Shown here one piece after another: positions 31,548 to 50,091 of a stretch of 61,307 bases of DNA. The notes beneath the pieces were generated by a model. It saw nothing but the letters and a program-made list of their open reading frames with translations, searched no databases and had not been told where the DNA came from. The DNA is from Bacteroidales bacterium (GTDB taxonomy: Bacteria > Bacteroidota > Bacteroidia > Bacteroidales > F082). The stretch spans positions 1-61,307 of the forward strand of contig JAFYNK010000016.1 in the NCBI GenBank assembly GCA_017548125.1. Reading direction: 5' to 3'. Within the stretch, counting starts at the first letter, position 1. Each line of letters opens with the position of its first letter. A program made the position numbers and the translations under genes.

Positions 31548-31578
31548 CCTAGTATTGTTTGATAACATTAAATATTAT

Positions 31579-33141
31579 ATGGCAAAGAAACAACTCAAAA
31601 CAAAGAGTATTGAAGAAACCTTATGGGAATCAGCGAATAAGTTACGAGGATCAGTAGAACCTTCTGAATATAAACACGTTGTACTTAGTCTTATTTTCTT
31701 GAAATATGCAAACGACCGTTTTGAAGAACGTCGTAACGAACTCATCGCCGACGGCAAAGCAGCATTCATAGATCAGGCTGTTTTCTACAATGCCAAGAAT
31801 GTGTTCTATATCGAAGAACAAAGTCGCTGGAGTTTCATAATGGAGAATGCCAAACAGAATGATATTGCCATAAAAATTGACAAAGCATTATCCGCTATCG
31901 AAGACAGCAACCCAACTCTCAAAGGCGCGCTTCCAAGCAACTACTATTCCGGATTAGGTCTTGATAAAGCTAAACTCGCTGCGTTGCTCGATGAAATAAA
32001 CAAGATCGACACTCTGAAAGATCCTGAAAACGACCTCATCGGACGCGTCTATGAATATTTCCTCGCCAAGTTCGCTATTGCAGAAGGTAAAGGCAAAGGC
32101 GAATATTACACTCCTAAAAGCATTGTAAATCTCATTGCAGAAATCATAGAACCATATAGAGGCAAGATTTACGACCCTTGCTGCGGTTCTGGAGGCATGT
32201 TCGTGCAAAGCATGAAATTCATCGAAGCTCATCACGGCAACAAACGCGACATTTCTGTCTATGGCCAGGAATACACCAACACCACTTATAAGTTGGCAAA
32301 GATGAATCTTGCTATTCGCGGCATCGCCAGCAACCTCGGAGAAATGGCAGCCGACACTTTCCACAACGACCAGCACAAGGATCTGAAAGCCGATTTCATC
32401 ATGGCTAATCCGCCTTTCAACCAGAAATCTTGGCGTGCCGATAACGAGTTAAAAGACGACCCTCGCTGGCACGGTTATGATGTACCGCCGACAAGCAACG
32501 CCAACTACGGATGGATTTTGAATATAGTATCTAAGTTGTCGAGCAATGGCGTAGCAGGTTTCCTCTTGGCAAACGGAGCATTGAGCGGCGACGGCATAGA
32601 GATGAACATACGCCGTCAGTTGTTGCAGAATCATCTTGTTGAAGCAATCGTCATACTTCCACGCAATATGTTCTACTCCACCGATATCAGTGTCACGCTA
32701 TGGATATTGGCAGGAAACCGCAAGTCACGCACCGTGGAACAGAACGGCAAGATGGTGAAATATCGTAACCGCGAGAATGAAGTTCTGTTTGTGGATTTAC
32801 GCCAATGGGGAGAACCTTTCGAAAAGAAATACATACAATTCACTGCTGAACAAATTTCCGAGATTGCACAGAACATACACAACTGGCAACGCGAAGGCCA
32901 CGAGACGACATACAAAAACATTCCGGAATATTGCTATTCTGCATCATTGGATGAGATTGAGAAAAAATCATGGAGCCTTGTCCCAAGCAAATATATAGAG
33001 TTTAAAGACCGTAACGAGGACTTCGACTTCGACGGCAAGATGAAAGAACTGCAATCTGAACTTGGAGAACTTCTAAAACAAGAAGAAGCAAGCAAGAACG
33101 AATTGAAAGAACTGTTTGAAAAGTTGGGATATAAATTATAA
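31579..33141 (+). CDS. hsdM: Type I restriction-modification methyltransferase subunit HsdM
   Basis: N6-adenine methyltransferase subunit. 520 residues: N-terminal helical HsdM domain (SIEETLWESANKLRG), then the SAM-binding motif DPCCGSGGMF and the catalytic NPPF in MANPPFNQKSW, then a C-terminal coiled segment for HsdS contact. Full length. Start ATG 31579 (MAKKQLKTK). First gene of the locus, 23 nt before hsdS; its partner hsdR is separated by roughly 6 kb of inserted accessory genes. Confidence 0.96.
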   Translation: MAKKQLKTKSIEETLWESANKLRGSVEPSEYKHVVLSLIFLKYANDRFEERRNELIADGKAAFIDQAVFYNAKNVFYIEEQSRWSFIMENAKQNDIAIKIDKALSAIEDSNPTLKGALPSNYYSGLGLDKAKLAALLDEINKIDTLKDPENDLIGRVYEYFLAKFAIAEGKGKGEYYTPKSIVNLIAEIIEPYRGKIYDPCCGSGGMFVQSMKFIEAHHGNKRDISVYGQEYTNTTYKLAKMNLAIRGIASNLGEMAADTFHNDQHKDLKADFIMANPPFNQKSWRADNELKDDPRWHGYDVPPTSNANYGWILNIVSKLSSNGVAGFLLANGALSGDGIEMNIRRQLLQNHLVEAIVILPRNMFYSTDISVTLWILAGNRKSRTVEQNGKMVKYRNRENEVLFVDLRQWGEPFEKKYIQFTAEQISEIAQNIHNWQREGHETTYKNIPEYCYSASLDEIEKKSWSLVPSKYIEFKDRNEDFDFDGKMKELQSELGELLKQEEASKNELKELFEKLGYKL

Positions 33142-33164: not shown

Positions 33165-34328
33165 ATGACCACAAACAAACGCTTAGGCGACTACATACAA
33201 GAAATTGACGTCCGTAATAGAGACTTGTCTGCTACGGAATTGGTCGGTCTTACCATCAACAAAGCTTTTATACCTTCCGTAGCAAATGTTATTGGAACTG
33301 ATTTATCTACATATAAAGTTATTAAAAACGAGCAATTTGCTTGCAGTTTAATGCAGGTAAGTAGAGACGAAAAAATGCCAATTGCAATGTTTACAGGAGA
33401 CACTGCCATAATGTCTCCCGCATATCCAATGTTTGAAGTCATTGACAAATCGGTCTTACTTCCTCAATATTTAATGATGTGGTTTTCTCGCAAAGAGTTT
33501 GACAGAGAAGCCAGTTTCTATGCAGTTGGTGGCGTTCGTGGTAGTTTAACTTGGGAAGACTTCTGCGATTTATCCCTCCCTATCCCACCGATTGAACGCC
33601 AGCGTGAGATTGTTGCCGAATACGAGACATTGAGCAAGCGCATAAGTCTGAACGAGCGGATGATTAGCAAGTTAGAGCAAACCGCCCAGACGCTCTATCG
33701 TAAGATGTTTGTTGATGGCATTGACAAAGAAAACCTGCCCGAAGGCTGGAAAATGGGGACGTTGGGGGAAATTTGTTCAAAAATAGGAAGTGGTTCAACC
33801 CCCAAAGGAGGAAAAGACTGTTATACAAATTCTGGAATTTCGCTTATCAGAAGTATGAATGTTTTTGATTTCAATTTCTGTTACGATGAACTTGCGCACA
33901 TATCAAATGCACAAGCAACATTACTTGACGGTGTTACTATTCAAGAAAAAGACATTCTTTTTAACATAACAGGTGCATCTGTTGCTAGATGCTGCATGGT
34001 ACCCAACAATGTTTTGCCTGCACGAGTTAATCAACATGTTATGATTATTCGTTCAAAACATGATTTCATGTCATATTATTTGCTTTGCACATTATGTACT
34101 GATGAAACTAAACGTTCTTTGCTAGGCATGAGTCAATCAGGTTCAACAAGAGAGGCTATAACCAAAACCGATATAGAATCCTTTAATATTGCAATACCGC
34201 CAAAGGAAATGTTAAAAGATTTTGCAAGTCAAGCAGACATTATATTTTCATATACTGATATATATAAACAAGAAAATTCAAAATTAACGGAATTACAGTC
34301 TTTGCTATTGGCGAGGATAGGGAGATGA
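33165..34328 (+). CDS. hsdS: Type I restriction-modification specificity subunit HsdS
   Basis: 387 residues with two target-recognition domains separated by conserved helices: TRD1 (about 1-140), helix IPPIERQREIVAEYETLSKRI (about 145-190), TRD2 beginning near EGWKMGTLGEICSKIGSGSTP, and a terminal helix ending LLLARIGR. The recognition sequence cannot be read from the gene. No inverted repeats or partial second hsdS were found nearby, so no sign of the shuffling loci common in Bacteroides. A small hairpin GAGATGAGAGAAAGCATCTC follows the stop and may end the hsdMS transcript. Confidence 0.93.
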   Translation: MTTNKRLGDYIQEIDVRNRDLSATELVGLTINKAFIPSVANVIGTDLSTYKVIKNEQFACSLMQVSRDEKMPIAMFTGDTAIMSPAYPMFEVIDKSVLLPQYLMMWFSRKEFDREASFYAVGGVRGSLTWEDFCDLSLPIPPIERQREIVAEYETLSKRISLNERMISKLEQTAQTLYRKMFVDGIDKENLPEGWKMGTLGEICSKIGSGSTPKGGKDCYTNSGISLIRSMNVFDFNFCYDELAHISNAQATLLDGVTIQEKDILFNITGASVARCCMVPNNVLPARVNQHVMIIRSKHDFMSYYLLCTLCTDETKRSLLGMSQSGSTREAITKTDIESFNIAIPPKEMLKDFASQADIIFSYTDIYKQENSKLTELQSLLLARIGR

Positions 34329-34429
34329 GAGAAAGCATCTCATTCCTCCATCATCTAATATCATAGCTTAATTATCCATACCTACTTTATTTAGATTTCT
34401 CCATATCCGTGTCACAAAAGAAACGGACA

Positions 34430-34530
34430 TTTTGTCATATTGCATATTTTTTGTCATTTTCCATATACCAAATTACCTTTTATAATATTTTATTTTTGAT
34501 TTAAACTTATTTTATGTCATTTTTGCTTAT
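34430..34530 (+). promoter_or_regulatory. Candidate operator/promoter of the inserted cassette: direct repeats and -7 box
   Basis: Two 18-bp direct repeats, TTTTGTCATATTGCATAT (34430-34447) and TTTTGTCATTTTCCATAT (34449-34466), match at 16 of 18 positions with 19-bp phasing. A weaker third copy (TGTCATTTTTGCTTAT) follows around 34515. A TATTTTTG -7 box lies at 34491-34498. This arrangement fits binding of a tandem repressor upstream of the GIY-YIG/ubiquitin-like genes. The regulator is not identified. Confidence 0.5.
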
Positions 34531-34638
34531 AAAACCACGCACGGCGCAGTTTTTGTACTACAGAATAACGAAGTTTATATTTATCAAAGTAAATTTCAAA
34601 TTGAAATTAATAACGAAAACGAAAGGAGGTATAAAAAA

Positions 34639-34890
34639 ATTAACAAGAGAAGCACTTACAAGTATGTTTTAAAGGATGGAAACAAGATCAAGTATGTCGG
34701 CATCACAGATGACCCCCAACGCAGAGAATCGGAACATAAGCGCGATAAAGATTTTAAAAAGATGGAAATTATTGGTCGAGCTGTCTCACGTGAATCTGCT
34801 GAAAAATGGGAAACAGAACGTATTAATCAATATCGACGAAACCATAACGGTCAGGTTCCTCCATTAAACAAGACTCTAAATGGCAAGTAA
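34639..34890 (+). CDS. Small GIY-YIG-like nuclease-domain protein without a canonical start codon
   Basis: The frame reads TYKYVLKDGNKIKYVGITDD, then PQRRESEHKRD and ends PPLNKTLNGK. The Y-x-V...K-Y-V-G-I-T-x-D-P-x-R-R-x-x-E-H pattern is that of GIY-YIG domains (Tyr, Gly, Arg, and a downstream Glu in WETERIN). The frame is open from 34486 but contains no ATG, GTG or TTG. The best start is ATT at 34639, preceded 8 nt upstream by the strong ribosome-binding site AGGAGGT (34624-34630), giving 83 residues. Alternatively the N terminus is decayed. Sits between hsdS and the ubiquitin-like gene. Confidence 0.65.
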   Translation: MNKRSTYKYVLKDGNKIKYVGITDDPQRRESEHKRDKDFKKMEIIGRAVSRESAEKWETERINQYRRNHNGQVPPLNKTLNGK

Positions 34891-34900
34891 GCCATCACCA

Positions 34901-34948
34901 AAATCGAGTTTTCTGAGTAGTAATCGTGAACAAACTCTGATTTTATTA
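34901..34948 (+). terminator. Possible terminator/attenuator before the ubiquitin-like gene
   Basis: AAAATCGAGTTTT and AAACTCTGATTTT form a long AT-rich stem with one bulge; a T-rich stretch follows at 34949-34966. Confidence 0.45.
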
Positions 34949-34966
34949 TTAATCTAATTTTTTTAT

Positions 34967-35410
34967 ATGAAAAATTTTTATCATTTAATGATCAATGGCA
35001 CCAATTACAAATGGGAGCAACCATTGATTAAAGGCTCTGAAATCAAACAATTAGGTAGAATTGAGCCAACTGCCAAATTGTATTTAAAAGGAAAAGGCAA
35101 TCAACCTGATGAGATGATTACCGATGACCAGCTAATTACCTTGTCAAATCCAGGAATTGAGAAATTCATTTCAAAAGACATTCGTACTGTTATTGTCGTC
35201 AATGCACGCGAACTTGCCTGGGAAAAAGATCAAATTTCTTATGACGAATTAGTTTTGTTAGCTTACGGTGTCATAGATAAAAATACTGCCTATACAATAA
35301 CCTATTCGAACGGTCCAGAAGAGAATCGAGAAGGTTTTGTTGTAAAAGGACAAGTTGTTGTTGTATGTAATAAAATGAATTTCAATGTTACAGGAACTTG
35401 TCAATCATAA
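34967..35410 (+). CDS. Multiubiquitin-family protein, two ubiquitin-like beta-grasp repeats
   Basis: 147 residues made of two similar halves. Half 1 (about 5-70) reads YHLMINGTNYKWEQPLIKGSEIKQLG; half 2 (about 74-147) reads VIVVNARELAWEKDQISYDELVLLA and ends in a strand plus FNVTGTCQS. The paired pattern V-x-x-N-x-x-x-x-W-x-x-x-x-I-x-x-x-E/D-I/L is that of the Multiubiquitin family, and the C-terminal F-N-V-T-x-T-x-x-S tail is its usual end. No Gly-Gly terminus is visible. It overlaps the E1-like gene by 26 nt, so the two are translationally coupled. Probably the modifier protein or its scaffold. Base composition is more AT-rich than hsdM/hsdR. Confidence 0.85.
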   Translation: MKNFYHLMINGTNYKWEQPLIKGSEIKQLGRIEPTAKLYLKGKGNQPDEMITDDQLITLSNPGIEKFISKDIRTVIVVNARELAWEKDQISYDELVLLAYGVIDKNTAYTITYSNGPEENREGFVVKGQVVVVCNKMNFNVTGTCQS

Positions 35411-36569
35411 TGAAGATTTGCGTAAGCTTCGGGATGAAGGGTACGAAGTCGATGCGATTGGTGGATACTTGGTTATCCACCATATCCCTTATGTTGCTAA
35501 TGAGGATGGAACCCCCACACCTAAAAATAATGGTAAACTTGTTGCTACACTAAATCTTTCTGGCAACAATCTTAACAAACCATTTGATCATACAGCATAT
35601 TTCATTGGACAGCGTCCTTGCAATATTGATGGTTCCATAATCAGTGGATTAATCAACAATTCAAACAAACAGAATTTAGGTAATGGCCTAGTGGTGGATC
35701 ATTATTTATCAAACAAACCTGTTGGTGGAAAAGAAAACTCGTATTATGAAAAGATCAAACGATACGAATCAATCATCTCCAAACCAGCAGAATACCTAGA
35801 CCGTAATTTGACTGCAAAAACCTTCAAGCCGATTCGACCCGATAATAATGCCAGTCCATTCAACTATATCGACACCATGTCATCTAGATATGAGATCCAA
35901 GCTATCTCCGATAAACTTAAAAATGATAAAGTTGCAATAGTTGGATTAGGCGGAACTGGCTCGTATGTACTGGATTTTATCGCAAAAACGCCGGTGAAAG
36001 AAATCCATCTTTTTGACGGAGATATTTTTTGCACACACAATGCATACAGAGCACCTGGTTCTCCATCTTTTGAAACATTAAACAAAAAACAATTCAAGAC
36101 GGAGTATTTTGAAAACATCTACAGCAATATGAGAAGTGGCATTATTTCACATTCAGAACATTTAACATGCGACAATATTGATCAACTATTATGTGGATTT
36201 GACTTCGTTTTTGTATGTATAGATAATGCCGAGGCTAGAATATTTACGACAGAATTTCTCGGATATAGCAACATCCCTTTTATTGATACAGGAATCGGTC
36301 TATATGTAACCAACAATGAAATTTCTGGACAAATAAGAACTACATGTTGCAATGATGATTCTTTCGATAAAATTAAGGATTATATCCCTACAACAAATCC
36401 AGAAGTTGACAATGCATATAGAACCAATATTCAAATTGCAGAAATAAACGCTCTTAATGCAGCTTTAGCTGTTATAAAATGGAAGCAATTTAAAGGGTTC
36501 TACAACATGCAAATAAACAATAATGATTATGTATTTTCAATTAATGACATGACGTTAAACAAAAGATAA
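35385..36569 (+). CDS. E2-like (DUF6791) domain fused to a ThiF/E1-like adenylyltransferase
   Basis: 394 residues. The N-terminal 150 residues resemble the E2-like DUF6791 module, with a conserved-looking segment HTAYFIGQRPCNIDGS that places a candidate conjugating Cys79. From about 175 comes an E1/ThiF fold: dinucleotide-binding GLGGTGSYV (187-195), FDGDIF (D211, D213), R222, and DNAEAR. CC at 321-322 is a candidate E1 thioester cysteine. Such E2-E1 fusions are known to pair with Multiubiquitin and DUF6527 proteins. It would adenylate and transfer a ubiquitin-like protein; target unknown. Overlaps the upstream gene and leads DUF6527 by 2 nt. Confidence 0.85.
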   Translation: MLQELVNHNEDLRKLRDEGYEVDAIGGYLVIHHIPYVANEDGTPTPKNNGKLVATLNLSGNNLNKPFDHTAYFIGQRPCNIDGSIISGLINNSNKQNLGNGLVVDHYLSNKPVGGKENSYYEKIKRYESIISKPAEYLDRNLTAKTFKPIRPDNNASPFNYIDTMSSRYEIQAISDKLKNDKVAIVGLGGTGSYVLDFIAKTPVKEIHLFDGDIFCTHNAYRAPGSPSFETLNKKQFKTEYFENIYSNMRSGIISHSEHLTCDNIDQLLCGFDFVFVCIDNAEARIFTTEFLGYSNIPFIDTGIGLYVTNNEISGQIRTTCCNDDSFDKIKDYIPTTNPEVDNAYRTNIQIAEINALNAALAVIKWKQFKGFYNMQINNNDYVFSINDMTLNKR

Positions 36570-36571
36570 TT

Positions 36572-36883
36572 ATGAAACATTGTTTTGTCGACAACATTCC
36601 TAATAAAGCAAATATGGAAAGCAACACATTATATATTTCTTTGAAATATAATGTTGCAATTCATAAATGCGCTTGTGGATGTGGAAATGAAGTTGTTACA
36701 CCTTTTGACGAACGTAGAGGTTGGATTTTATCATATAATGGGAAAGGCATTTCTTTATCCCCTTCTATTGGCAATTGGAATCTTCCTTGCAAAAGCCATT
36801 ATTGGATTTCTAATAGTGAAGTACATTTTATTCACGATAAAAAAAAGAAGAAAAAAAGAAAAAGATTCTGGCCACTTTGGTAA
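36572..36883 (+). CDS. DUF6527-family zinc-binding protein of the ubiquitin-like cassette
   Basis: 103 residues. Zinc ligand candidates are C33, C35, C37 in CACGCGNEVVTP and C73 plus H76 in PCKSHYWI. This resembles the binuclear/treble-clef-like DUF6527 family that occurs next to E2-E1 fusion and Multiubiquitin genes. A strongly basic tail of eight K/R residues (about 90-98) precedes the end FWPLW, suggesting nucleic-acid or membrane contact. An E3-like or adaptor role is only inferred. Starts 2 nt after the E1-like gene. Confidence 0.8.
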   Translation: MKHCFVDNIPNKANMESNTLYISLKYNVAIHKCACGCGNEVVTPFDERRGWILSYNGKGISLSPSIGNWNLPCKSHYWISNSEVHFIHDKKKKKKRKRFWPLW

Positions 36884-36988: not shown

Positions 36989-38290
36989 ATGATACAAGAA
37001 ATAAAAGTAAAGAATTTCTTATCGTTCAAAAAAGAAATAACTTTTAGTTTTGAAGCAACAAAAGACACTTTCGCAGAAGATTACCAAGTTGTAGAAGTTG
37101 CTCCCGGCGTAAGACTTTTACGCTTTGCCATGGTCTATGGCGCAAATGCATCAGGAAAGTCAAATCTATTATCTGTCATAAGATTCTTAGGTTCATTTTG
37201 GAGAAATATACCTCAATCTGTAGATGAAGGAACCAACATTATACCATTCCTTTTAGATTTTGAAACACCAAACAATCCTTCTGAATTTGAAATTATATTT
37301 TATGTAGAAAACAAAAAATACTGGTATCAACTCACAATTGACAAACAAGCTGTTGTATCAGAAAAATTGTTTGTTTACAACAGTGTTCAACCAACTCTGC
37401 TTTTTGACAGAAAATTAGAGAACGACCAATCTGTCATTCACTATGGAGCCCCTATAAAAATCAGTTCTGTTGAAAAAGAGAAAATAACTGTTGAGTGTTT
37501 AAAAAATATGTCTTTTTTTGCAGCACGCAACAAAGTAAACATTTCACTTCCAGAAATAGATGAAGCTAAACAATGGGTATTAAAACATATTATGCCTATA
37601 GTAGCTCCCGAAACATCATTGTTTGAATACGCTGAAAATCACATTACAAAAGATGCTCTTTTAAAAACGCATTTACTTAATTTCTTAAAGCAAGCTGATT
37701 TCAACATTTCAGACATAAAAACCGATATCATAAAAGAAACAATACCAGAACAATATTTAAACCTATTTCTAAATGATGAAAACATTCCTGCCCTTGAAAA
37801 AGACAGACTAAGAAAAGAAAAAACGATTTCTCGTTATGAAACATCATTTGAACACACAGTGAATCTGCAAAATCAATTATCAAAGTTTTATCTATCAAAA
37901 GATTTAGAATCATTAGGCACACTTCGTACATTTGGTATTGAAACCGCCATTTATTACGCACAACAAAATAACTCTGTTCTTGCAATCGATGAAGTAGAAA
38001 ATTCACTTCACCCACAATTATTACGATTAATTCTTTTAGATTTTCTAAGGAACAAATCACGTTCACAACTTATAGTTACCACACATTACGATCCTCTGCT
38101 TAATGATATTTCCAAATTGGACGATCAACGTATATTCAGGAAAGATAGTGTTTGGTTTACAGAAAAAATGGATTCTGGACATACTGATGTTTATTCATTG
38201 GCAGAATTCAGAGGATTAAATCGTTTGTCTTCCGTTCAAAAAGCATACAATCAAGGTAATTTTGGAGCTGTACCTCAAATTAATTTTTAG
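36989..38290 (+). CDS. rloA: RloA-like AAA15 ATPase (AbiL-type defence pair, ATPase subunit)
   Basis: 433 residues. ABC/SMC-like ATPase: N-terminal IKVKNFLSFKKEITFSF, Walker A GANASGKSN (51-59), and Walker B VLAIDEVENSLHP followed by QLIVTTHYDPLL. This is the AAA15/RloA family that partners RloB (also AbiLi/AbiLii). rlo genes were first named as restriction-linked ORFs inside hsd loci of Campylobacter jejuni, the same context as here. Presumed to sense phage or DNA ends and to license the RloB nuclease-like partner; mechanism not established. Confidence 0.88.
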   Translation: MIQEIKVKNFLSFKKEITFSFEATKDTFAEDYQVVEVAPGVRLLRFAMVYGANASGKSNLLSVIRFLGSFWRNIPQSVDEGTNIIPFLLDFETPNNPSEFEIIFYVENKKYWYQLTIDKQAVVSEKLFVYNSVQPTLLFDRKLENDQSVIHYGAPIKISSVEKEKITVECLKNMSFFAARNKVNISLPEIDEAKQWVLKHIMPIVAPETSLFEYAENHITKDALLKTHLLNFLKQADFNISDIKTDIIKETIPEQYLNLFLNDENIPALEKDRLRKEKTISRYETSFEHTVNLQNQLSKFYLSKDLESLGTLRTFGIETAIYYAQQNNSVLAIDEVENSLHPQLLRLILLDFLRNKSRSQLIVTTHYDPLLNDISKLDDQRIFRKDSVWFTEKMDSGHTDVYSLAEFRGLNRLSSVQKAYNQGNFGAVPQINF

Positions 38291-38292
38291 TT

Positions 38293-38883
38293 ATGCCAAG
38301 ACGTGTTGAAAACAGAATACAGAAAAAGCATGCGGTTACCATTTTAGGCGAAGGTATAACCGAACAGCACTATTTCACTCATATTCGTACTTTATTCGGA
38401 TATAACTATACAATAAAACCATATTATTTTTCCGTTACATCTCTTACAGAAATGGACAAAAAAATTGCAGAAGCCATTACTGATGGTGGTTATGCTATTG
38501 CTGTTTTTGATGCTGATGTTGCAAATAGAAACGATATAGAAAAAAGAAAATTAGAATCTATTAGAAAAAAATATGCTAACAAACGCAACGTTATTATTTG
38601 TGATAGTTATACATCTATAGAATATTGGTTTTTGCTACATTTTGAAAACACAAACAAATTCTTCAAAGATTCTGATGCAACTGAAAAGGAGCTACGAAAA
38701 CACATTCCAGACTATGAAAAGAAATCAAAATTCTTACATAATTTCAAATGGGTTTCTGATTTATGTTCAGAAGGAAAATTAGATTTGGCTAGAGAACGTG
38801 CAGAATATTTTGGACAAAATGGGGAATCTTATTCAAATATATATACAGCTTTTGAATTATTAGATAAGTTGAAACAAGTGTAA
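38293..38883 (+). CDS. rloB: RloB-like TOPRIM-related protein
   Basis: 196 residues, 2 nt after rloA. Conserved acidic motifs: GEGITEQHYF (Glu20 and Glu24) and VFDADVANRND (Asp73, Asp75), fitting the TOPRIM-like metal site assigned to RloB; then FENTNKFFKD and EYWFLLHF helices. Together with RloA it forms an AbiL-like abortive-infection module. The reading frame is complete. Confidence 0.86.
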   Translation: MPRRVENRIQKKHAVTILGEGITEQHYFTHIRTLFGYNYTIKPYYFSVTSLTEMDKKIAEAITDGGYAIAVFDADVANRNDIEKRKLESIRKKYANKRNVIICDSYTSIEYWFLLHFENTNKFFKDSDATEKELRKHIPDYEKKSKFLHNFKWVSDLCSEGKLDLARERAEYFGQNGESYSNIYTAFELLDKLKQV

Positions 38884-39063: not shown

Positions 39064-40209
39064 ATGTCAGAAGAGAACAAAATATTATCATGCCCTAAGT
39101 GCAAATCTCCAAACGTGGAGAAAACTGATAACGTATATCAATGCGTAGATTGCGGTTGTGAATGGAGACTCACTGAAGATGAACTTCCCAAAACGCAAAG
39201 TCTGACCATTAGAAATAGTACTGCTGAGTTCCTCATTTTCCAAGCGCAAAGCCAGGCAAACGGAGTGGAAGTAATGTATGCAGAAGAAACTATCTGGTGT
39301 ACACAAGATGCCATCGCCGCATTGTTTGATAAAAGCCGCACGACAATCACTGAACATTTGCAGAATATTTTCAAAGAGGGTGAATTACAGAAAGATGCAG
39401 TATGTCGAAAATTCCGACGAACTGCTAACGACGGTAAAACCTATAATACTCAATTCTACAATCTTGATGTCATAATATCAGTCGGATACAGAGCTAATTC
39501 CACTCGTGCCACCCAGTTCCGCCAATGGGCAACGGCTGTACTCCGTCAGTTTGCTATTCGTGGCTATGTACTTGACAAAAAGCGTATGGAAAATGGTGCG
39601 TTCCTGACAACCGACTACTTTGAACATCTGTTGGCGGAAATACGTGAAATCCGTTTGAGTGAACGCCGAATGTATCAAAAGGTAACCGATATTTATGCTA
39701 CTGCCATCGACTATAATAGAGATGCACCTACAACACGCCGTTTCTTTGCAAAAGTACAGAACAAACTACACTATGCCATTCATGGAAACACTGCAGCAGA
39801 ACTGATTATGAAACGTGCTGATGTTGAAAAGGAACACATGGGATTGACATCTTGGGAGAACGCACCGAAAGGTAAGATTGTCAAGACCGATGTCTCCATT
39901 GCAAAAAACTATTTGAATGCTAAAGAATTAGACAGTTTAGGAAGAATCGTCAATGCATTCCTTGATTTGGCGGAAAACCGAGCAATGCGTCATATTCCAA
40001 TGACAATGGAAGATTGGTCAAATTACATTGACAGATTTCTGATGATTGATGAACTGCCATTGCTACAGGATAATGGCAGCGTCTCAGCAGAAGAAGCTAA
40101 ACAGTTTGCAGAATCGGAATTTGAAAAATATCGCATTATACAAGATCGTTTGTTTAAGTCAGATTTTGACGATGAGATAGAAGGATTATTGTCTAACATA
40201 AAAGATTAA
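39064..40209 (+). CDS. RhuM-family protein with N-terminal zinc ribbon
   Basis: 381 residues. N-terminal zinc ribbon (C10-x2-C13 ... C27-x2-C30) then the RhuM domain: ETIWCTQDAIAALFDKSRTTITEHLQNIFKEGEL, FYNLDVIISVGYR, FRQWAT and a helical C-terminal half. RhuM proteins occur in pathogenicity islands and beside type I restriction genes; molecular function is unknown. The zinc ribbon is an addition compared with the second RhuM gene in this window (49874). It lies in a 1,243-bp unit between two copies of a 51-bp repeat, immediately before hsdR, which starts 5 nt after its stop codon. Confidence 0.87.
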   Translation: MSEENKILSCPKCKSPNVEKTDNVYQCVDCGCEWRLTEDELPKTQSLTIRNSTAEFLIFQAQSQANGVEVMYAEETIWCTQDAIAALFDKSRTTITEHLQNIFKEGELQKDAVCRKFRRTANDGKTYNTQFYNLDVIISVGYRANSTRATQFRQWATAVLRQFAIRGYVLDKKRMENGAFLTTDYFEHLLAEIREIRLSERRMYQKVTDIYATAIDYNRDAPTTRRFFAKVQNKLHYAIHGNTAAELIMKRADVEKEHMGLTSWENAPKGKIVKTDVSIAKNYLNAKELDSLGRIVNAFLDLAENRAMRHIPMTMEDWSNYIDRFLMIDELPLLQDNGSVSAEEAKQFAESEFEKYRIIQDRLFKSDFDDEIEGLLSNIKD

Positions 40210-40210
40210 C

Positions 40211-40261
40211 CCCTATGCCCCACTTCAACGAACATACTCTCGAAATGGCAATAATGGAACT
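40211..40261 (+). repeat. 51-bp direct repeat, right copy
   Basis: Exact copy of 38968-39018; contains the functional hsdR start codon (40215). Confidence 0.95.
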
Positions 40262-43200
40262 CTTTGAAAACGAGGGTTACATATATACCAACGGCGAACT
40301 TATTCATAAAGAGCTGTCTGATGTGCTGCTCCGCGATGACTTGCGCTTGTATCTGCAGAGTCGTTATGCCGAACATGGTATTAGTTCGTTGGAGATAGAG
40401 AACGTCATCGCTCGTCTGACAGCAAACGCTGGCGGTTCGCTTTATGAGAATAACGTCTACACTTATCGTATGATAACCGAAGGCTTTGCCATAAAACGTG
40501 AGGATAGTGCAAAAGCGGATCTTTTCATTGAACCAATAGATTTCACAAAAGAAAGCAATAACATCTTCCGCATCGTTAATCAACTCGAGATAAAAGGCAC
40601 AGAAAAACGTATTCCAGACGGCATCGTCTATATCAACGGTCTGCCGATGGTGGTGCTGGAATTTAAGAGCGCCGTCAAGGAAGATACAACAATAAAAGAC
40701 GCTTATACACAACTGACAGTGCGCTATCGCAGAGATATTCCTGAGCTTTTCAAATACAATGCTTTTGTGGTGATAAGCGACGGCGTAAACAGCAAATACG
40801 GTTCTTTATTCACGCCATACGATTATTTCTATGCCTGGCGTAAAGTGGAATCGGAAGATAAAGCAACTGACGGCATCAGCTCTCTGCTGACAATGATACA
40901 AGGTCTGTTCCGTAAAGAGAGACTGCTGAGCGTGATAAAAGATTTCGTCTTCCTCCCCGACTCTTCCAAGAAAGAACAGAAAATAGTATGCCGTTATCCT
41001 CAGTTCTTCGCGACACATAAATTATTCAACAACATACGTCAGCATTCTAAGTTAAACGCTGACGGCGACGGAAAAGGCGGAACATATTTCGGTGCCACTG
41101 GATGCGGAAAAAGTTTCACAATGCTCTTCCTGACTCGCATGCTGATGCGTAGCCGTGAGTTCGCAAGTCCTACTATAATTCTCATCACCGACCGCACCGA
41201 CCTCGACACTCAGTTGTCGGAACAATTTGGCAAAGCCAAGACTTTTATCGGCGACGATTGCGTCGTTGAAGTTGAAAGCAGAGCAAAACTGAGAGAGCAT
41301 CTGCAAGGTCGCACGAGCGGTGGGGTGTTCCTGACAACGATTCATAAATTCACAGAAGATACAAAGTTATTATCGGAACGAGCCAATATAATCTGTATCT
41401 CAGACGAGGCTCATCGTTCGCAGACAAATCTCTTGCAAAAGGTACAACATACTGACAAAGGTGTGCGACGCAGTTATGGCTTTGCTAAATATCTGCATGA
41501 TTCATTGCCTAACGCCACTTACGTCGGATTCACCGGCACTCCTATCGATGCTACCATTGACGTATTCGGTGATGTTGTTGATTCTTACACGATGACAGAA
41601 TCAGTCGCTGATGAGATTACGTGTCGCATCGTTTATGAAGGTCGTGCTGCCAAAGTATTGCTCGACAACACCAAACTTCAAGAGATTGAGAAATATTATG
41701 AAGAATGCGCTGAAGAAGGAACCAATGAATATCAGATAGAAGAAAGCAAGAGAGCAGTCACGCAGATGGAACGTATTCTCGGCGACCCTGACCGTCTGCA
41801 AACTGTTGCAGAAGACTTCGTTGAACATTACGAATCTCGCATTGAAGAAGGCAGTACAGTGGAAGGCAAAGCGATGTTCGTTTGTTCCAATCGTACGATA
41901 GCATATAATCTTTATAAGAAGATAATAAAACTTCGTCCAGAATGGGCGCAGAAATCAACAAGCAAAATCATAGAACTGCCACAATACGGAATAGCAGCTG
42001 AGGAATCGGAACAATATGGAAGCGAGGCAATGCCGATTGAACGTGTCAAATTGGTGATGACTCGTAACAAAGACGACGAGAAAGAACTCTGGGATTTGCT
42101 TGGCACTGATGAAGACAGGAAAAAAATTGATGTTCAGTTCAAAAACCCACATTCTAACTTCAAGATTGCTATCGTAGTTGATATGTGGATTACAGGATTC
42201 GACGTTCCTTGCCTCGACACAATGTATATCGACAAACCATTGCAACAACATACTTTGATACAGACAATATCGCGCGTCAACAGAGTATATCCTGGCAAAG
42301 ACAAAGGTCTTATCGTTGATTACATTGGCATCAAAAACAATATGAACAAAGCATTGAAACGCTATGCGACCGGCGAAATCGACTCTGGCACAATAGAGAC
42401 TATCGAGCAATCTATAACAATGGTAAAAGACGAGCTTGACATACTGCGTCGTATGTTTGCCAAATTCGACTATAGCAAATTCATTACTGGAACGCCATTA
42501 GAACAATTAGACTGTCTTAACAAAGGCGCCGAGTTCATACAAGTCACTAAAGAAACCGAGAATCTTTTCATGGGACACACCAAGAAACTAAAGTCCGCTT
42601 TCAACATGTGTTGCAACAGCGAACAGATAACATTTGAAGAAAGAGAAGATATTCATTTCTTCTGTGGCATTCGTTCTATTATTTACAAACTCACCAAAGG
42701 TGAAACGCCTGACGCAGCGCAGATGAATGCGAGAGTCTGCAAGATGATTGAAGAAGCAATTCTTTCAGAAAACGTTGAAGAGATAATCCAAATCGGCAAC
42801 GACAAAGATAAGCTCGACCTGCTCAGCGAGGATTATATGGAACGACTCTCAAAACTCAAAATGCCTAATACAAAAGTGAAACTTATGGAACGTCTGCTCA
42901 AAACCGTCATCACTGAGTTCAAGAAAGTCAATAAGATAAAAGGAACAGACTTCACACAACGTCTCAACGAACTTGTAAACAGATATAACGACAGAAGCGA
43001 CAGTGCGATATTCGCTGACGAAGTGCTTACGGAGGTTGCAAGTCAAATGGCAGATTTACTCAAAGAGATAAACAAAGAGAAGCAGTCATTCAAAGATTTA
43101 GGAATAACATACGAAGAAAAGGCTTTTTATGATATTTTGATTGCCGTCGCAAAACAATTCGGCTTTGACTATCCTACAGATAAAGCCAAAACATTAGCGG

Positions 43201-43391
43201 AAGAAATCAAGAAGATTGTCGATGACAAATCCAAATACACTGATTGGTCAAAGCGTGACGACATCAAAGCAGAGTTAAAAATGGACTTGATTCTCATATT
43301 GGCAGAATACGGTTATCCTCCAGTCACCAACGATGATGTTTTCAAAGAGATTTTCGAACAAGCAGAAAACTTCAAGAAATACAATTCATAA
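40215..43391 (+). CDS. hsdR: Type I restriction endonuclease subunit HsdR
   Basis: 1058 residues. PD-(D/E)xK nuclease motif with D135, E149 and K151 (VVLEFKS), SF2 translocase with Walker A GATGCGKS (293-300), DEAH (397-400), FTGTP, and a motif VI-like ISRVNRVYPGKDKG, then a long helical C-terminal region. Complete. Works with HsdM and HsdS to cut unmodified DNA at a distance. Composition is like hsdM and unlike the genes between them. Confidence 0.96.
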   Translation: MPHFNEHTLEMAIMELFENEGYIYTNGELIHKELSDVLLRDDLRLYLQSRYAEHGISSLEIENVIARLTANAGGSLYENNVYTYRMITEGFAIKREDSAKADLFIEPIDFTKESNNIFRIVNQLEIKGTEKRIPDGIVYINGLPMVVLEFKSAVKEDTTIKDAYTQLTVRYRRDIPELFKYNAFVVISDGVNSKYGSLFTPYDYFYAWRKVESEDKATDGISSLLTMIQGLFRKERLLSVIKDFVFLPDSSKKEQKIVCRYPQFFATHKLFNNIRQHSKLNADGDGKGGTYFGATGCGKSFTMLFLTRMLMRSREFASPTIILITDRTDLDTQLSEQFGKAKTFIGDDCVVEVESRAKLREHLQGRTSGGVFLTTIHKFTEDTKLLSERANIICISDEAHRSQTNLLQKVQHTDKGVRRSYGFAKYLHDSLPNATYVGFTGTPIDATIDVFGDVVDSYTMTESVADEITCRIVYEGRAAKVLLDNTKLQEIEKYYEECAEEGTNEYQIEESKRAVTQMERILGDPDRLQTVAEDFVEHYESRIEEGSTVEGKAMFVCSNRTIAYNLYKKIIKLRPEWAQKSTSKIIELPQYGIAAEESEQYGSEAMPIERVKLVMTRNKDDEKELWDLLGTDEDRKKIDVQFKNPHSNFKIAIVVDMWITGFDVPCLDTMYIDKPLQQHTLIQTISRVNRVYPGKDKGLIVDYIGIKNNMNKALKRYATGEIDSGTIETIEQSITMVKDELDILRRMFAKFDYSKFITGTPLEQLDCLNKGAEFIQVTKETENLFMGHTKKLKSAFNMCCNSEQITFEEREDIHFFCGIRSIIYKLTKGETPDAAQMNARVCKMIEEAILSENVEEIIQIGNDKDKLDLLSEDYMERLSKLKMPNTKVKLMERLLKTVITEFKKVNKIKGTDFTQRLNELVNRYNDRSDSAIFADEVLTEVASQMADLLKEINKEKQSFKDLGITYEEKAFYDILIAVAKQFGFDYPTDKAKTLAEEIKKIVDDKSKYTDWSKRDDIKAELKMDLILILAEYGYPPVTNDDVFKEIFEQAENFKKYNS

Positions 43392-48875: not shown

Positions 48876-49874
48876 TTATTGATTGTTTATCAAACGAATA
48901 TCTTTATCCAATTCTTTGATGCTTTCAATATGAATTTGTTCTTTTTCTATTTCTTTGAATCTCATATATTCAGATTCCGCTTTCTCTATCGCTAGTTCAT
49001 GAGAAATTTTACCAGGACCTTCCAACACATTTCTTTCATTAAGTTTTAAAATCAGATCTAAACGTTCCTTCCAGTCTTTCATATACATAGGACGATGAGC
49101 CAAAGCTTGTGCTTCTGCATAAGCCAAATATTGTTCAACGATTAGTTTTAACGCCTTTAACTCATCTTCTTGAAGATAATTTTTACCAATTGTGACATCC
49201 TGTTTTCTCACTTTAGAAACAGCACTAGTAGATGTGAGTCCCATCATTGGCAAAGAAGCATTTGCTCTATAATAAATAAGTTCGGCTGCAGTTTTCTCAC
49301 TGACAGCCCATAATAATTTATTTTGAACTTCTTTGAAAAAATTCAACGTCATCTCATCTGAAGGATCATAGTCGATACTTGTTTTGTATATATCTTTAAT
49401 CTGTTGATAGAAAATCTTTTCTTCTATTCTGATTTCTCGAATCTTTTCTATCAACTCTTTGAAATAGTTCATTGAAGATCCCTTTTTGAAGCGTTCTTCA
49501 TTCAAAGCATAACCTCTGATAATATAATCTCTCAGACGTTGAGTAGCCCAAATGCGGAACATCGTACCTTGACGAGATTTTACACGGTATCCAACAGAAA
49601 TAATTACATCTAGATTGTAGAAATTTGTTGGTTTGGTTGAAAAATCGGAAATTCCGATTTTTCTCACGCTCAACTCTTCTTGAAGTTCTCCTTCTTGAAA
49701 AATATGTAATATATGCTCATTAATTGTTGATTTTCCTTTTCCAAACAACAATGCCATTTGTTCTTGCGTGAGCCATACGGTTTCGTCTTGAAAAAGAACA
49801 TCAACTTTAACATTGCCATCTTCCGATTGGTATATGACTATTTCATCTTGGATTGGTGATATTTCCTGTTTCAT
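48876..49874 (-). CDS. RhuM-family protein
   Basis: 332 residues: ETVWLTQEQMALLFGKGKSTINEHILHIFQEGEL, FYNLDVIISVGYRVKS, FRIWATQRLRDYIIRGYAL, and the helical C-terminal half with VTIGKNYLQEDEL. Clearly paralogous to the RhuM at 39064 but lacks its zinc ribbon. A promoter-like TAAATTTG (minus strand 49895-49902) overlaps the first ATG (49895), so ATG 49874 (MKQEISPIQDE) is preferred; a second box TACTTTTG at 49975-49982 would allow the longer start. Function unknown; not beside restriction genes here. Confidence 0.87.
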   Translation of the reverse strand: MKQEISPIQDEIVIYQSEDGNVKVDVLFQDETVWLTQEQMALLFGKGKSTINEHILHIFQEGELQEELSVRKIGISDFSTKPTNFYNLDVIISVGYRVKSRQGTMFRIWATQRLRDYIIRGYALNEERFKKGSSMNYFKELIEKIREIRIEEKIFYQQIKDIYKTSIDYDPSDEMTLNFFKEVQNKLLWAVSEKTAAELIYYRANASLPMMGLTSTSAVSKVRKQDVTIGKNYLQEDELKALKLIVEQYLAYAEAQALAHRPMYMKDWKERLDLILKLNERNVLEGPGKISHELAIEKAESEYMRFKEIEKEQIHIESIKELDKDIRLINNQ

Positions 49875-50091
49875 ATCTCTTAGTTTTTTATTCACAAATT
49901 TAAAAATATTTTCCAGTCCTTTCTTGAACTTTATAACTTATTACACATTTATAGTTGATAAATAATTCACTCTACAAAAGTACAACTATCATTTCGCTTT
50001 TGTCAAGCATTTATAAAGAAAATATTTTGCTTTTAACATTTTTTAACGCAATGTTAATAAAATCAATAATGTTATGTTAAGATTTTTTAAG

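Follow-up and report, generated by a model that had tools for sequence, protein, structure and literature searches.

A Multi_ubiq, DUF6791-ThiF and DUF6527 gene trio, a predicted ubiquitin-like module, inside a type I restriction-modification operon of a Bacteroidales bacterium

Introduction

The window analysed here is the whole 61,307-nucleotide (nt) stretch of contig JAFYNK010000016.1 (assembly GCA_017548125.1; contig C94 in a 2.73-Mb genome of 97 contigs) from a Bacteroidales bacterium. Its + strand carries, at 31.5-43.4 kb and in this order, hsdM, hsdS, a GIY-YIG frame, a gene for a ubiquitin-like protein (Ubl), a gene for an E1-like enzyme (E1), a DUF6527 gene, and genes for an AAA ATPase, RloB, RhuM, and HsdR (Table 1). 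The subject of this report is the trio, or cassette, of Ubl, E1, and DUF6527 genes. The GIY-YIG, Ubl, E1, and DUF6527 frames all lie on the + strand without internal stops, and their four proteins match the four corresponding Pfam families above the curated cut-offs; a preliminary description of this DNA, which had recognised a predicted ubiquitin-like system in the trio and had assigned its 147- and 103-residue proteins to Multi_ubiq and DUF6527, is borne out by these matches. It had also placed the cassette between hsdS and hsdR; while this position is correct, the AAA/RloB pair and RhuM separate the cassette from hsdR.

Operons of this kind have been predicted before. Iyer, Burroughs, and Aravind described in 2006 a polyUbl operon with a "domain X" subtype (row 6e) and offered, as a tempting speculation, that the extra domain of its E1 does a JAB-like job (PMC1779556). 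Bub and Bil operons encode a Ubl, an E1, an E2, and a specific protease (PMC12687455).

Table 1. Features of the restriction-modification operon and of the genes it contains (window coordinates; aa, amino acids)
Feature	Position	Strand	Supporting match
hsdM (host operon)	31555..33141	+	PF02384 + PF12161
hsdS (host operon)	33165..34328	+	PF01420
GIY-YIG frame, 83 aa, ATT opening; judged outside the cassette	34639..34890	+	PF01541
Ubl, Multi_ubiq protein, 147 aa	34967..35410	+	PF14452, E 1.6e-18
Overlap of Ubl end and E1 start, 26 nt	35385..35410	+	sequence
E1-like DUF6791-ThiF protein, 394 aa	35385..36569	+	PF20590 + PF00899
DUF6527 Cys/His protein, 103 aa	36572..36883	+	PF20137, E 2e-22
AAA_21 ATPase, AbiLi/RloA-like, co-resident cargo	36989..38290	+	PF13304, E 5.9e-38; PADLOC AbiLi, E 1.7e-75
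RloB-like (AbiLii), co-resident cargo	38293..38883	+	PF13707, E 1.1e-17; PADLOC AbiLii, E 1.3e-15
RhuM-family protein, PADLOC candidate PDC-S05	39064..40209	+	PF13310, E 8.2e-108
hsdR (host operon)	40215..43391	+	PF11867, PF18766, PF04313

Results

With the E1 as probe, a scan of genome contigs returned at least 501 confirmed relatives, of which the 80 closest to the window protein were kept as loci; a scan of viral contigs gave 4 loci, and the 2 of these that match nearly the full E1 length bring the set to 82. Alignments of 91 rows combine these 82 loci with 8 from genome searches and with the window, L016 being taken as the same place as L030 (L numbers designate individual loci). Since the sample holds near-copies (e.g., L062/L063, L082/L083, and L039/L057), all counts refer to loci and not to independent events.

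The order Ubl-E1-DUF6527 is kept in 82/82 loci as well as in the 8 genome-search loci; the genes are contiguous in 80 of the 82, while L049 and L067 have one extra gene ahead of DUF6527. Tight coupling of the trio genes had been proposed from an overlap of 26 nt between Ubl and E1 and a gap of 2 nt between E1 and DUF6527, and in the window both are exact (35385-35410 and 36570-36571, respectively). All 82 loci offer an E1 start codon (ATG in 81, TTG in 1) at exactly the place that gives this 26-nt overlap, and the open frame of the E1 extends farther upstream in some of them. Six of the 8 genome-search loci have an overlap of 26 nt; in L020 it measures 11 nt, and in L021 the called start gives 50 nt, where an inner Met would restore the 26-nt overlap.

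The window Ubl consists of two beta-grasp repeats (about 34982-35173 and 35192-35398) and ends in FNVTGTCQS-COOH; its closest solved chain is 9cd2 (E 1.5e-17; full-length profile match, E 2.6e-53). This chain, the ZDHYS365 multi-ubiquitin protein, shares the tail of the window Ubl, ending in FYVTQTDKS, and differs from it in size, with 222 aa and a three-domain profile match versus two domains in the window. While the modifier does lack a Gly-Gly end, as had been pointed out, its own tail is strongly conserved and of the form T-[DN]-[KRQ]-S, with Ser as the last residue in 90/91 Ubls (Ala in L042 is the sole exception), Lys/Arg/Gln at -2 in 90/91, Asp/Asn at -3 in 81/91, and Thr at -4 in 87/91. 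Because the C-terminus thus ends almost invariably in Ser, the lack of Gly-Gly does not force conjugation through another terminus or a scaffold role, as the preliminary description had concluded; rather, a fixed and conserved end speaks for C-terminal activation without need of processing. Judged by length alone, about one domain is present in 40/82 Ubls, two in 16/82, and three in 26/82, and the tail is present whatever the length. It is also retained in L020 despite the 11-nt overlap. In 83 rows the two frames were compared across a shared stretch of 27 nt, with variation expressed in bits (lower values being less variable): the Ubl Ser and Thr showed 0.09 and 0.32 bit versus 1.64 and 1.04 bits for the matching E1 codons 8 and 5, and the summed variation was 7.3 bits for Ubl positions -6 to -1 versus 10.0 bits for E1 codons 3 to 8. 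The Asn/Asp-Val at -8 and -7 of the Ubl is linked to the E1 ATG. We consider the terminal Ser the odd point of this system and the one most worth testing.

The E1 belongs to NCBIfam family PRK06153 (E 1.4e-138) and combines an N-terminal DUF6791 domain (PF20590, residues 10-164, E 1.8e-44) with a ThiF domain (PF00899, residues 176-321, E 3.2e-18). Seven residues to which we assign ATP-site roles by assumed analogy with MoeB and ThiF (G187, G189, G190, G192, N219, R222, and K238) are present in 91/91 rows and an eighth (D301) in 90/91. Of the cysteines singled out in the preliminary description, Cys79 in DUF6791 (codon 35619-35621) is conserved in 89/91 rows and retains its interest; Cys321/322, by contrast, lose theirs as a candidate active site, as neither is conserved (Thr is commonest at 321, in 37/91 rows, and Ser at 322, in 43/91). 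Within the ThiF part only position 278, a Rossmann strand residue by position, is mostly Cys (72/91), followed by 370 (20/91) and 360 (11/91). The window E1 has Lys329 where 80/91 rows have His. In the DUF6527 protein, H31-x-C33-x-C35-G-C37 and C73-x-S75-H76 are followed by a basic C-terminal tail, and H31, C33, C35, C37, C73, S75, and H76 are identical in 83/83 aligned rows, a pattern that suggests zinc binding.

Neither a JAB protease nor a Prok-E2 protein was matched among the ten locus proteins scanned with Pfam, a library that finds Prok-JAB in L192 and L196 and Prok-E2_E in L192, L196, and L197. These last loci come from a survey of 369 gammaproteobacterial genomes, which returned 14 Multi_ubiq proteins (13 over the cut-off); one (L054) was already in the set and the other 13 were examined. 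A DUF6791-type E1 (347-546 bits) is present in 4/13, and each Ubl of these four has a terminal Ser; L188, L189, and L190 show the 26-nt overlap, the called start in L187 lying farther upstream, and DUF6527 is present in 3/4, the contig of L188 coming to its end. The remaining 9/13 have another E1 (17-38 bits), and in 7/9 of these the E1 carries, by eye, an N-terminal JAB-like HSHP or near-HSHP stretch, HSHP being what we take to be the JAB motif. Three HSHP-type E1s were scanned, of which those of L192 and L196 pass the Prok-JAB cut-off and that of L198 does not reach it; in L193 a sub-threshold Prok-JAB match is to a separate protein, no Prok-JAB was found in two L195 proteins scanned, and no Prok-E2_E was found in L199. 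The Ubls of this other class end in Gly (L192, L196, and L197), Ala (L194 and L199), or Ser (L195, ..GASS), or run on, by eye, into a fused E2-like part (L191, L193, and L198, the last ending in ..HQNS), and 0/9 of these frames have a T-x-x-S tail. The full tail and the overlap thus go with DUF6791 in this small gammaproteobacterial set.

The interval ahead of hsdR in which the trio lies varies among related operons. A relative of the window hsdR (E up to 1e-100) is found in 28/99 genomes of the genus, the window's included; from these, we sampled the ten places with a whole hsdR at 59% identity or more (i.e., the window and nine others), leaving out lower or partial matches. Other genes precede hsdR in 9/9 of the same-genus loci, hsdS is visible upstream in 8/9, and an AAA-RloB pair adjoins hsdR in 6/9. 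Ten proteins from L153, L154, L158, and L159 were scanned, nine of them from the stretch ahead of hsdR; these include a DncV-like cyclase, of the type found in the cyclic oligonucleotide-based antiphage signaling system (CBASS), with a STING-TIR protein (L158), ThsB-type TIR proteins (L154 and L159), AbiH (L154), and, among the four loci, Schlafen/PHP, DUF4062, and TPR-S proteins, while the remaining one is a Fic protein encoded in the hsdM-hsdS interval of L154. In the closest relative, L151 (hsdM 84%, AAA 81%, and hsdR 74% identical to the window), a single 236-aa frame, which by eye we take to resemble a REP (repetitive extragenic palindrome)-associated transposase, stands where the window has the GIY-YIG frame and the trio. 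The guanine-cytosine (GC) content is 42.7% in hsdM, 34.1% in the trio, 30-32% in AAA-RloB, and 40-42% in RhuM and hsdR (hsdR 42.0%); the low value of the trio is mild evidence, as 24/297 equal-sized windows are as low.

Relatives of the E1 are sparse in the order of the window (8/393 genomes) and occur on plasmids (132 records, 109 covering at least 80% of the E1); records are titled Bacteroidota, Bacillota, Verrucomicrobiota, and Nitrososphaerota, among others, and many are metagenome bins. In an E1 tree of 90 rows the window and L103, both on long branches, are paired with a support of 95/93, and the tree mixes phyla, with 22 changes for 14 groups versus a least possible 13, a pattern that fits transfer without proving it. 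L021, from the same genus and with an E1 38% identical, lies by eye beside aminotransferase and sugar genes, and this different context suggests separate gains. On the IMG/VR contig of L103 (1766-9525), genes for large and small terminase subunits, a TFIIB-type zinc ribbon protein upstream, DUF5518, and the trio were seen; L103 is probably a virus or provirus, presumably archaeal, that carries the trio.

Discussion

The trio agrees in most respects with the operon of row 6e, which has a tandem Ubl protein with one to three repeats (two PF14452 repeats in the window), an E1 in which an uncharacterised domain replaces JAB at the N-terminus (DUF6791-ThiF in the window), and a metal protein Y with C-x(3)-C-x(35-38)-H-x(2)-C (C33-x3-C37-x35-C73-x2-H76 in the window) (PMC1779556); DUF6791 would then be "domain X". 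The two differ in the second metal pair, which is C-x2-H in the window and H-x2-C in the paper, and in that row 6e lists proteobacteria, actinobacteria, and cyanobacteria only, whereas trio records cover more phyla; the row 6e description makes no mention that we found of the Ser tail or of the 26-nt overlap (PMC1779556).

With Bub, the trio shares a Multi_ubiq-type Ubl (profile E 2.5e-16 to 9d59) and a ThiF-type E1 (E 4.3e-5 to PDB entry 9ea4, "Citrobacter BubCD"; 9d59, 9d5a, and 9d5b are probably Bub entries as well), and weak DUF6527-like matches in 5/9 of the gammaproteobacterial other-class loci and upstream regulators add to the likeness. Unlike Bub, it has no JAB that we found, no Prok-E2 match, a different Ubl end, and the 26-nt overlap. 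We refrain from classing the cassette as Bub, given that a protease was not found and an E2 is unproved, although it may function in much the same way. Conjugation with an E1 of the same superfamily is also known from type II CBASS (Cap2/Cap3). Bil (BilABCD) likewise conjugates with such an E1, and unlike the trio, in which neither was recognised, it has an E2 and a JAB protease (PMC11354881).

We interpret the trio as a self-contained module, of the DUF6791 subtype, for activating and attaching a ubiquitin-like protein, housed as defence cargo in the interval from hsdS to hsdR, and give this reading a probability of about 0.5. It draws on the family assignments, on the conservation of the unit, of the Ubl tail, and of particular residues, on the failure to detect a JAB, and on the variety of genes that the slot holds, and the role that it implies is likely to be stress or phage defence through C-terminal activation of the Ubl. 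Ubl and E1 would be co-produced from their overlapping genes; the ThiF domain would bind the conserved tail and adenylate the carboxylate of its final serine; once activated, the Ubl would move through DUF6791 to target proteins, with the near-invariant Cys79 as the best acceptor candidate; and the putative zinc protein DUF6527 may select or present the target in the manner of an E3. As the cassette has no JAB protease, the Ubl would be made with its final end, and covalent attachment would not be reversed by an enzyme of the cassette. Since the tag ends in serine and neither an E2 nor a protease is recognisable, the trio may use a chemistry unlike that of relatives that have been studied more closely. 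Tentatively, and as a bolder possibility on which we would not rely, the trio is a one-enzyme, protease-free system, in which a ThiF domain without a conserved E1-type cysteine activates a mature Ser end and hands the Ubl on via DUF6791, i.e., a second bacterial chemistry parallel to the JAB-E1 class.

Several observations weigh against this interpretation. A terminal Ser would be an unusual substrate for an E1, and two non-DUF6791 Ubl frames (L195 and the fused L198) end in Ser as well; in the overlap, Ubl -3 (1.50 bits) and -2 (1.22) are more variable than E1 Ile6 (0.64), and the needs of the E1 frame may thus account for some of the tail pattern. Cys79 is replaced by His in L060 and by Tyr in L020, and a thioester at this residue is therefore not universal. 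The window E1 is off consensus at 9/89 columns conserved at 90% or more (two rows at 14, and four others also at 9). No relation of DUF6791 to solved chains or to other Pfam families was found, and profile comparisons with E2, E2-like, and JAB sets gave probabilities of 0.2 to 0.6 (0.2 for the JAB set); with the JAB-like protein of L193 left out of the E2-like set, DUF6791 scored 0.6 and Prok-E2_B 1.3. The "E2-like" label given earlier to the N-terminal domain thus has no profile support, in a test of little power, since two true E2 sets match each other at only 1.1 to 1.3; across the two classes, the same comparison gives 98.9 for ThiF domains and 97.6 for Ubls. DUF6791 may still be a diverged E2. 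No match was found in 50,697 phage records, and no ImmA-type regulator was seen beside the window copy. A literature search in which the key Bub papers were not included returned no biochemistry of the DUF6791 subtype. For Bub itself, phage protection has not been demonstrated (PMC13373217).

Among candidates for the fold of DUF6791, E2 and JAB were both tried and drew no support from that weak profile test; an HPC..DG stretch that by eye recalls what we take to be the E2 HPN motif was given no weight.

The restriction genes had been suggested as a shared defence context, and a defence-like context is indeed what the slot offers; a single system of hsd genes and cassette is not supported, as hsd genes lie near only 2/90 other cassettes (L015, hsdM and hsdS; L074, hsdR; single-sequence search at E 1e-5, which may miss distant ones) and other genes precede the related hsdR in every sampled locus. 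AAA and RloB genes were found near L022 only, of 90. The trio appears as cargo of a type I restriction-modification (R-M) operon in which the interval ahead of hsdR is occupied by other genes in 9/9 relatives. That the trio serves a general stress response instead of phage defence, its place in the hsd operon being incidental, is a reading that we hold to be somewhat unlikely: it would suit the rarity of detectable hsd genes beside other copies and the response to DNA damage of regulators adjacent to Bub, for which the authors leave the point open (PMC13373217), whereas the slot of the nine same-genus loci is filled by other genes, several of them from known defence families, and E1 relatives occur on plasmids and beside a terminase.

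Beside other trio copies, an ImmA/IrrE-type gene (Peptidase_M78; one member was checked in Pfam) lies upstream and divergent within 4.5 kb in 46/82 loci, and anywhere in the locus in 53/82; public plasmid records annotate helix-turn-helix and ImmA genes (L166) and a WYL gene (L167) beside the trio, while a WYL regulator was found in 0/82 loci with one query only, a weak test. Bub operons carry CapW or CapH+CapP at 219/544 and CapK+CapS at 59, operons with such regulators are controlled by DNA damage, and 88/443 capKS pairs lie just downstream of a predicted R-M system (PMC13373217).

It is unlikely, in our judgement, that the Ubl acts non-covalently, i.e., by self-assembly, with the E1-like protein binding or adenylating it as a switch and the zinc protein as partner. 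Ubls of one to three beta-grasp domains would suit assembly, and filaments are said, by Gong et al. in 2025, to be formed by some bacterial Ubls; against this, conservation is among the highest at the last residues of the Ubl, which short versions also keep, and the ThiF ATP-site residues are intact. Even less probable is a role of the Ubl as a carrier of sulfur or a small group (the chemistry of ThiS/MoaD or of microcin C MccB), its end being thiolated or else coupled with either a nucleotide or a small molecule. The closest solved chains of the ThiF domain do include tRNA threonylcarbamoyladenosine dehydratase (E 1.2e-6) and MccB (E 2e-4), enzymes that act on a small-molecule or peptide carboxylate; however, the tail ends in Ser and not Gly-Gly, and no rhodanese or sulfur-transfer protein was recognised, by eye and with ten members scanned, in neighbour clusters of at least 4 loci.

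The GIY-YIG gene, proposed earlier as an additional member or effector, is placed outside the cassette because it is present in 0/90 other cassette loci, within the flanks at hand (loci of 4-17 kb, some near a contig end), an absence that the preliminary description had itself set as refuting its proposal on this point. The model used was built from 26/34 GIY-YIG rows and recovered 7/8 left-out rows at E < 1e-5, the eighth, which is short, at E 0.021. In the window, the frame matches PF01541 at E 1.1e-5 (26.1 bits versus a cut-off of 22.6) and has no ATG, GTG, or TTG start; reading may open at ATT 34639, 9 nt past an AGGAGG (34624-34629), at a position where a 56% identical homologue from another genome of the same order (L140) has ATG; this may be a rare start or a decayed gene. 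A nuclease effector encoded by this frame is very improbable: it is adjacent to the cassette (76 nt upstream of the Ubl gene, same strand), but other cassettes do without it, a standard start codon is lacking, and no cassette or hsd gene was seen, by eye, in the 19 kb read at L140, its closest homologue. A perfect 13-nt inverted repeat flanks the frame (34630-34642 and 34955-34967) in AT-rich DNA, and 5/300 dinucleotide shuffles did equally well.

Further observations concern the host operon and the neighbours of the trio elsewhere. The AAA_21 ATPase presumably goes by the name RloA. The second half of hsdS (33741-34328) has a GC content of 35.0% versus 41.8% in the first half, as if a recognition domain had been exchanged, and a second RhuM-family gene lies beyond hsdR (48876-49895, - strand). 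The Bacteroidetes-type promoter pattern, in the form that we assumed for it, had no match in 34329-34966 and 4 in the window, no more than chance. Beside other trios, a protein of 530-690 aa recurs at 4 loci, within the trio in L049 and L067 (in the gap between E1 and DUF6527) and downstream in L022 and L036; the L022 member, the only one scanned, has a cytidine deaminase domain, and the cluster recalls what we presume to be AvcD-type anti-phage deaminases. A large-protein cluster was seen at 8 loci (the L038 member, the only one scanned, has a subtilase domain) and a small-protein cluster at 10 (DUF2188 in the L046 member); the loci of these two clusters include L038, L046, L051, L058, and L093, upstream, and L047, L089, and L098. 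We take YegP to be of the DUF2188 kind. YegP-like genes also follow capKS (PMC13373217). Two upstream clusters (9 and 7 loci; L030, L032, L034, L037, L053, L069, and others) look sigma-factor-like by eye; of three such proteins scanned, one matched Sigma70_r4 at 22.9 bits, below the cut-off of 24.1, and two had no match. Some of these genes are accompanied by a small partner and an ImmA-type gene, in divergent orientation to the trio, and perhaps form another regulator module.

The trio is known in kind, as public records already annotate it by family names. The names DUF6791, DUF6527, and PRK06153 did not occur in a search of 5.39 million papers that had the key Bub/Bil papers outside its scope. 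What the present analysis adds is the class-wide tail, the exact overlap, the verdicts on Cys79 and Cys321/322, the exclusion of the GIY-YIG gene, and the slot ahead of hsdR, and some of this may already be in print.

Conclusions

The E1 of the trio is widespread, as the numbers of its relatives in one genome scan and among plasmid records show, and 9cd2 means that the Ubl structure of a family member is already solved. The trio is set apart from Bub by its conserved serine tail, its exact overlap, and the lack of a JAB, features that open its chemistry to tests with small mutants, and the interval ahead of the window hsdR is a place to look for defence genes. If the one-enzyme proposal holds, a second chemistry would be spread over many bacterial phyla and some archaea, on plasmids and in a probable archaeal virus.

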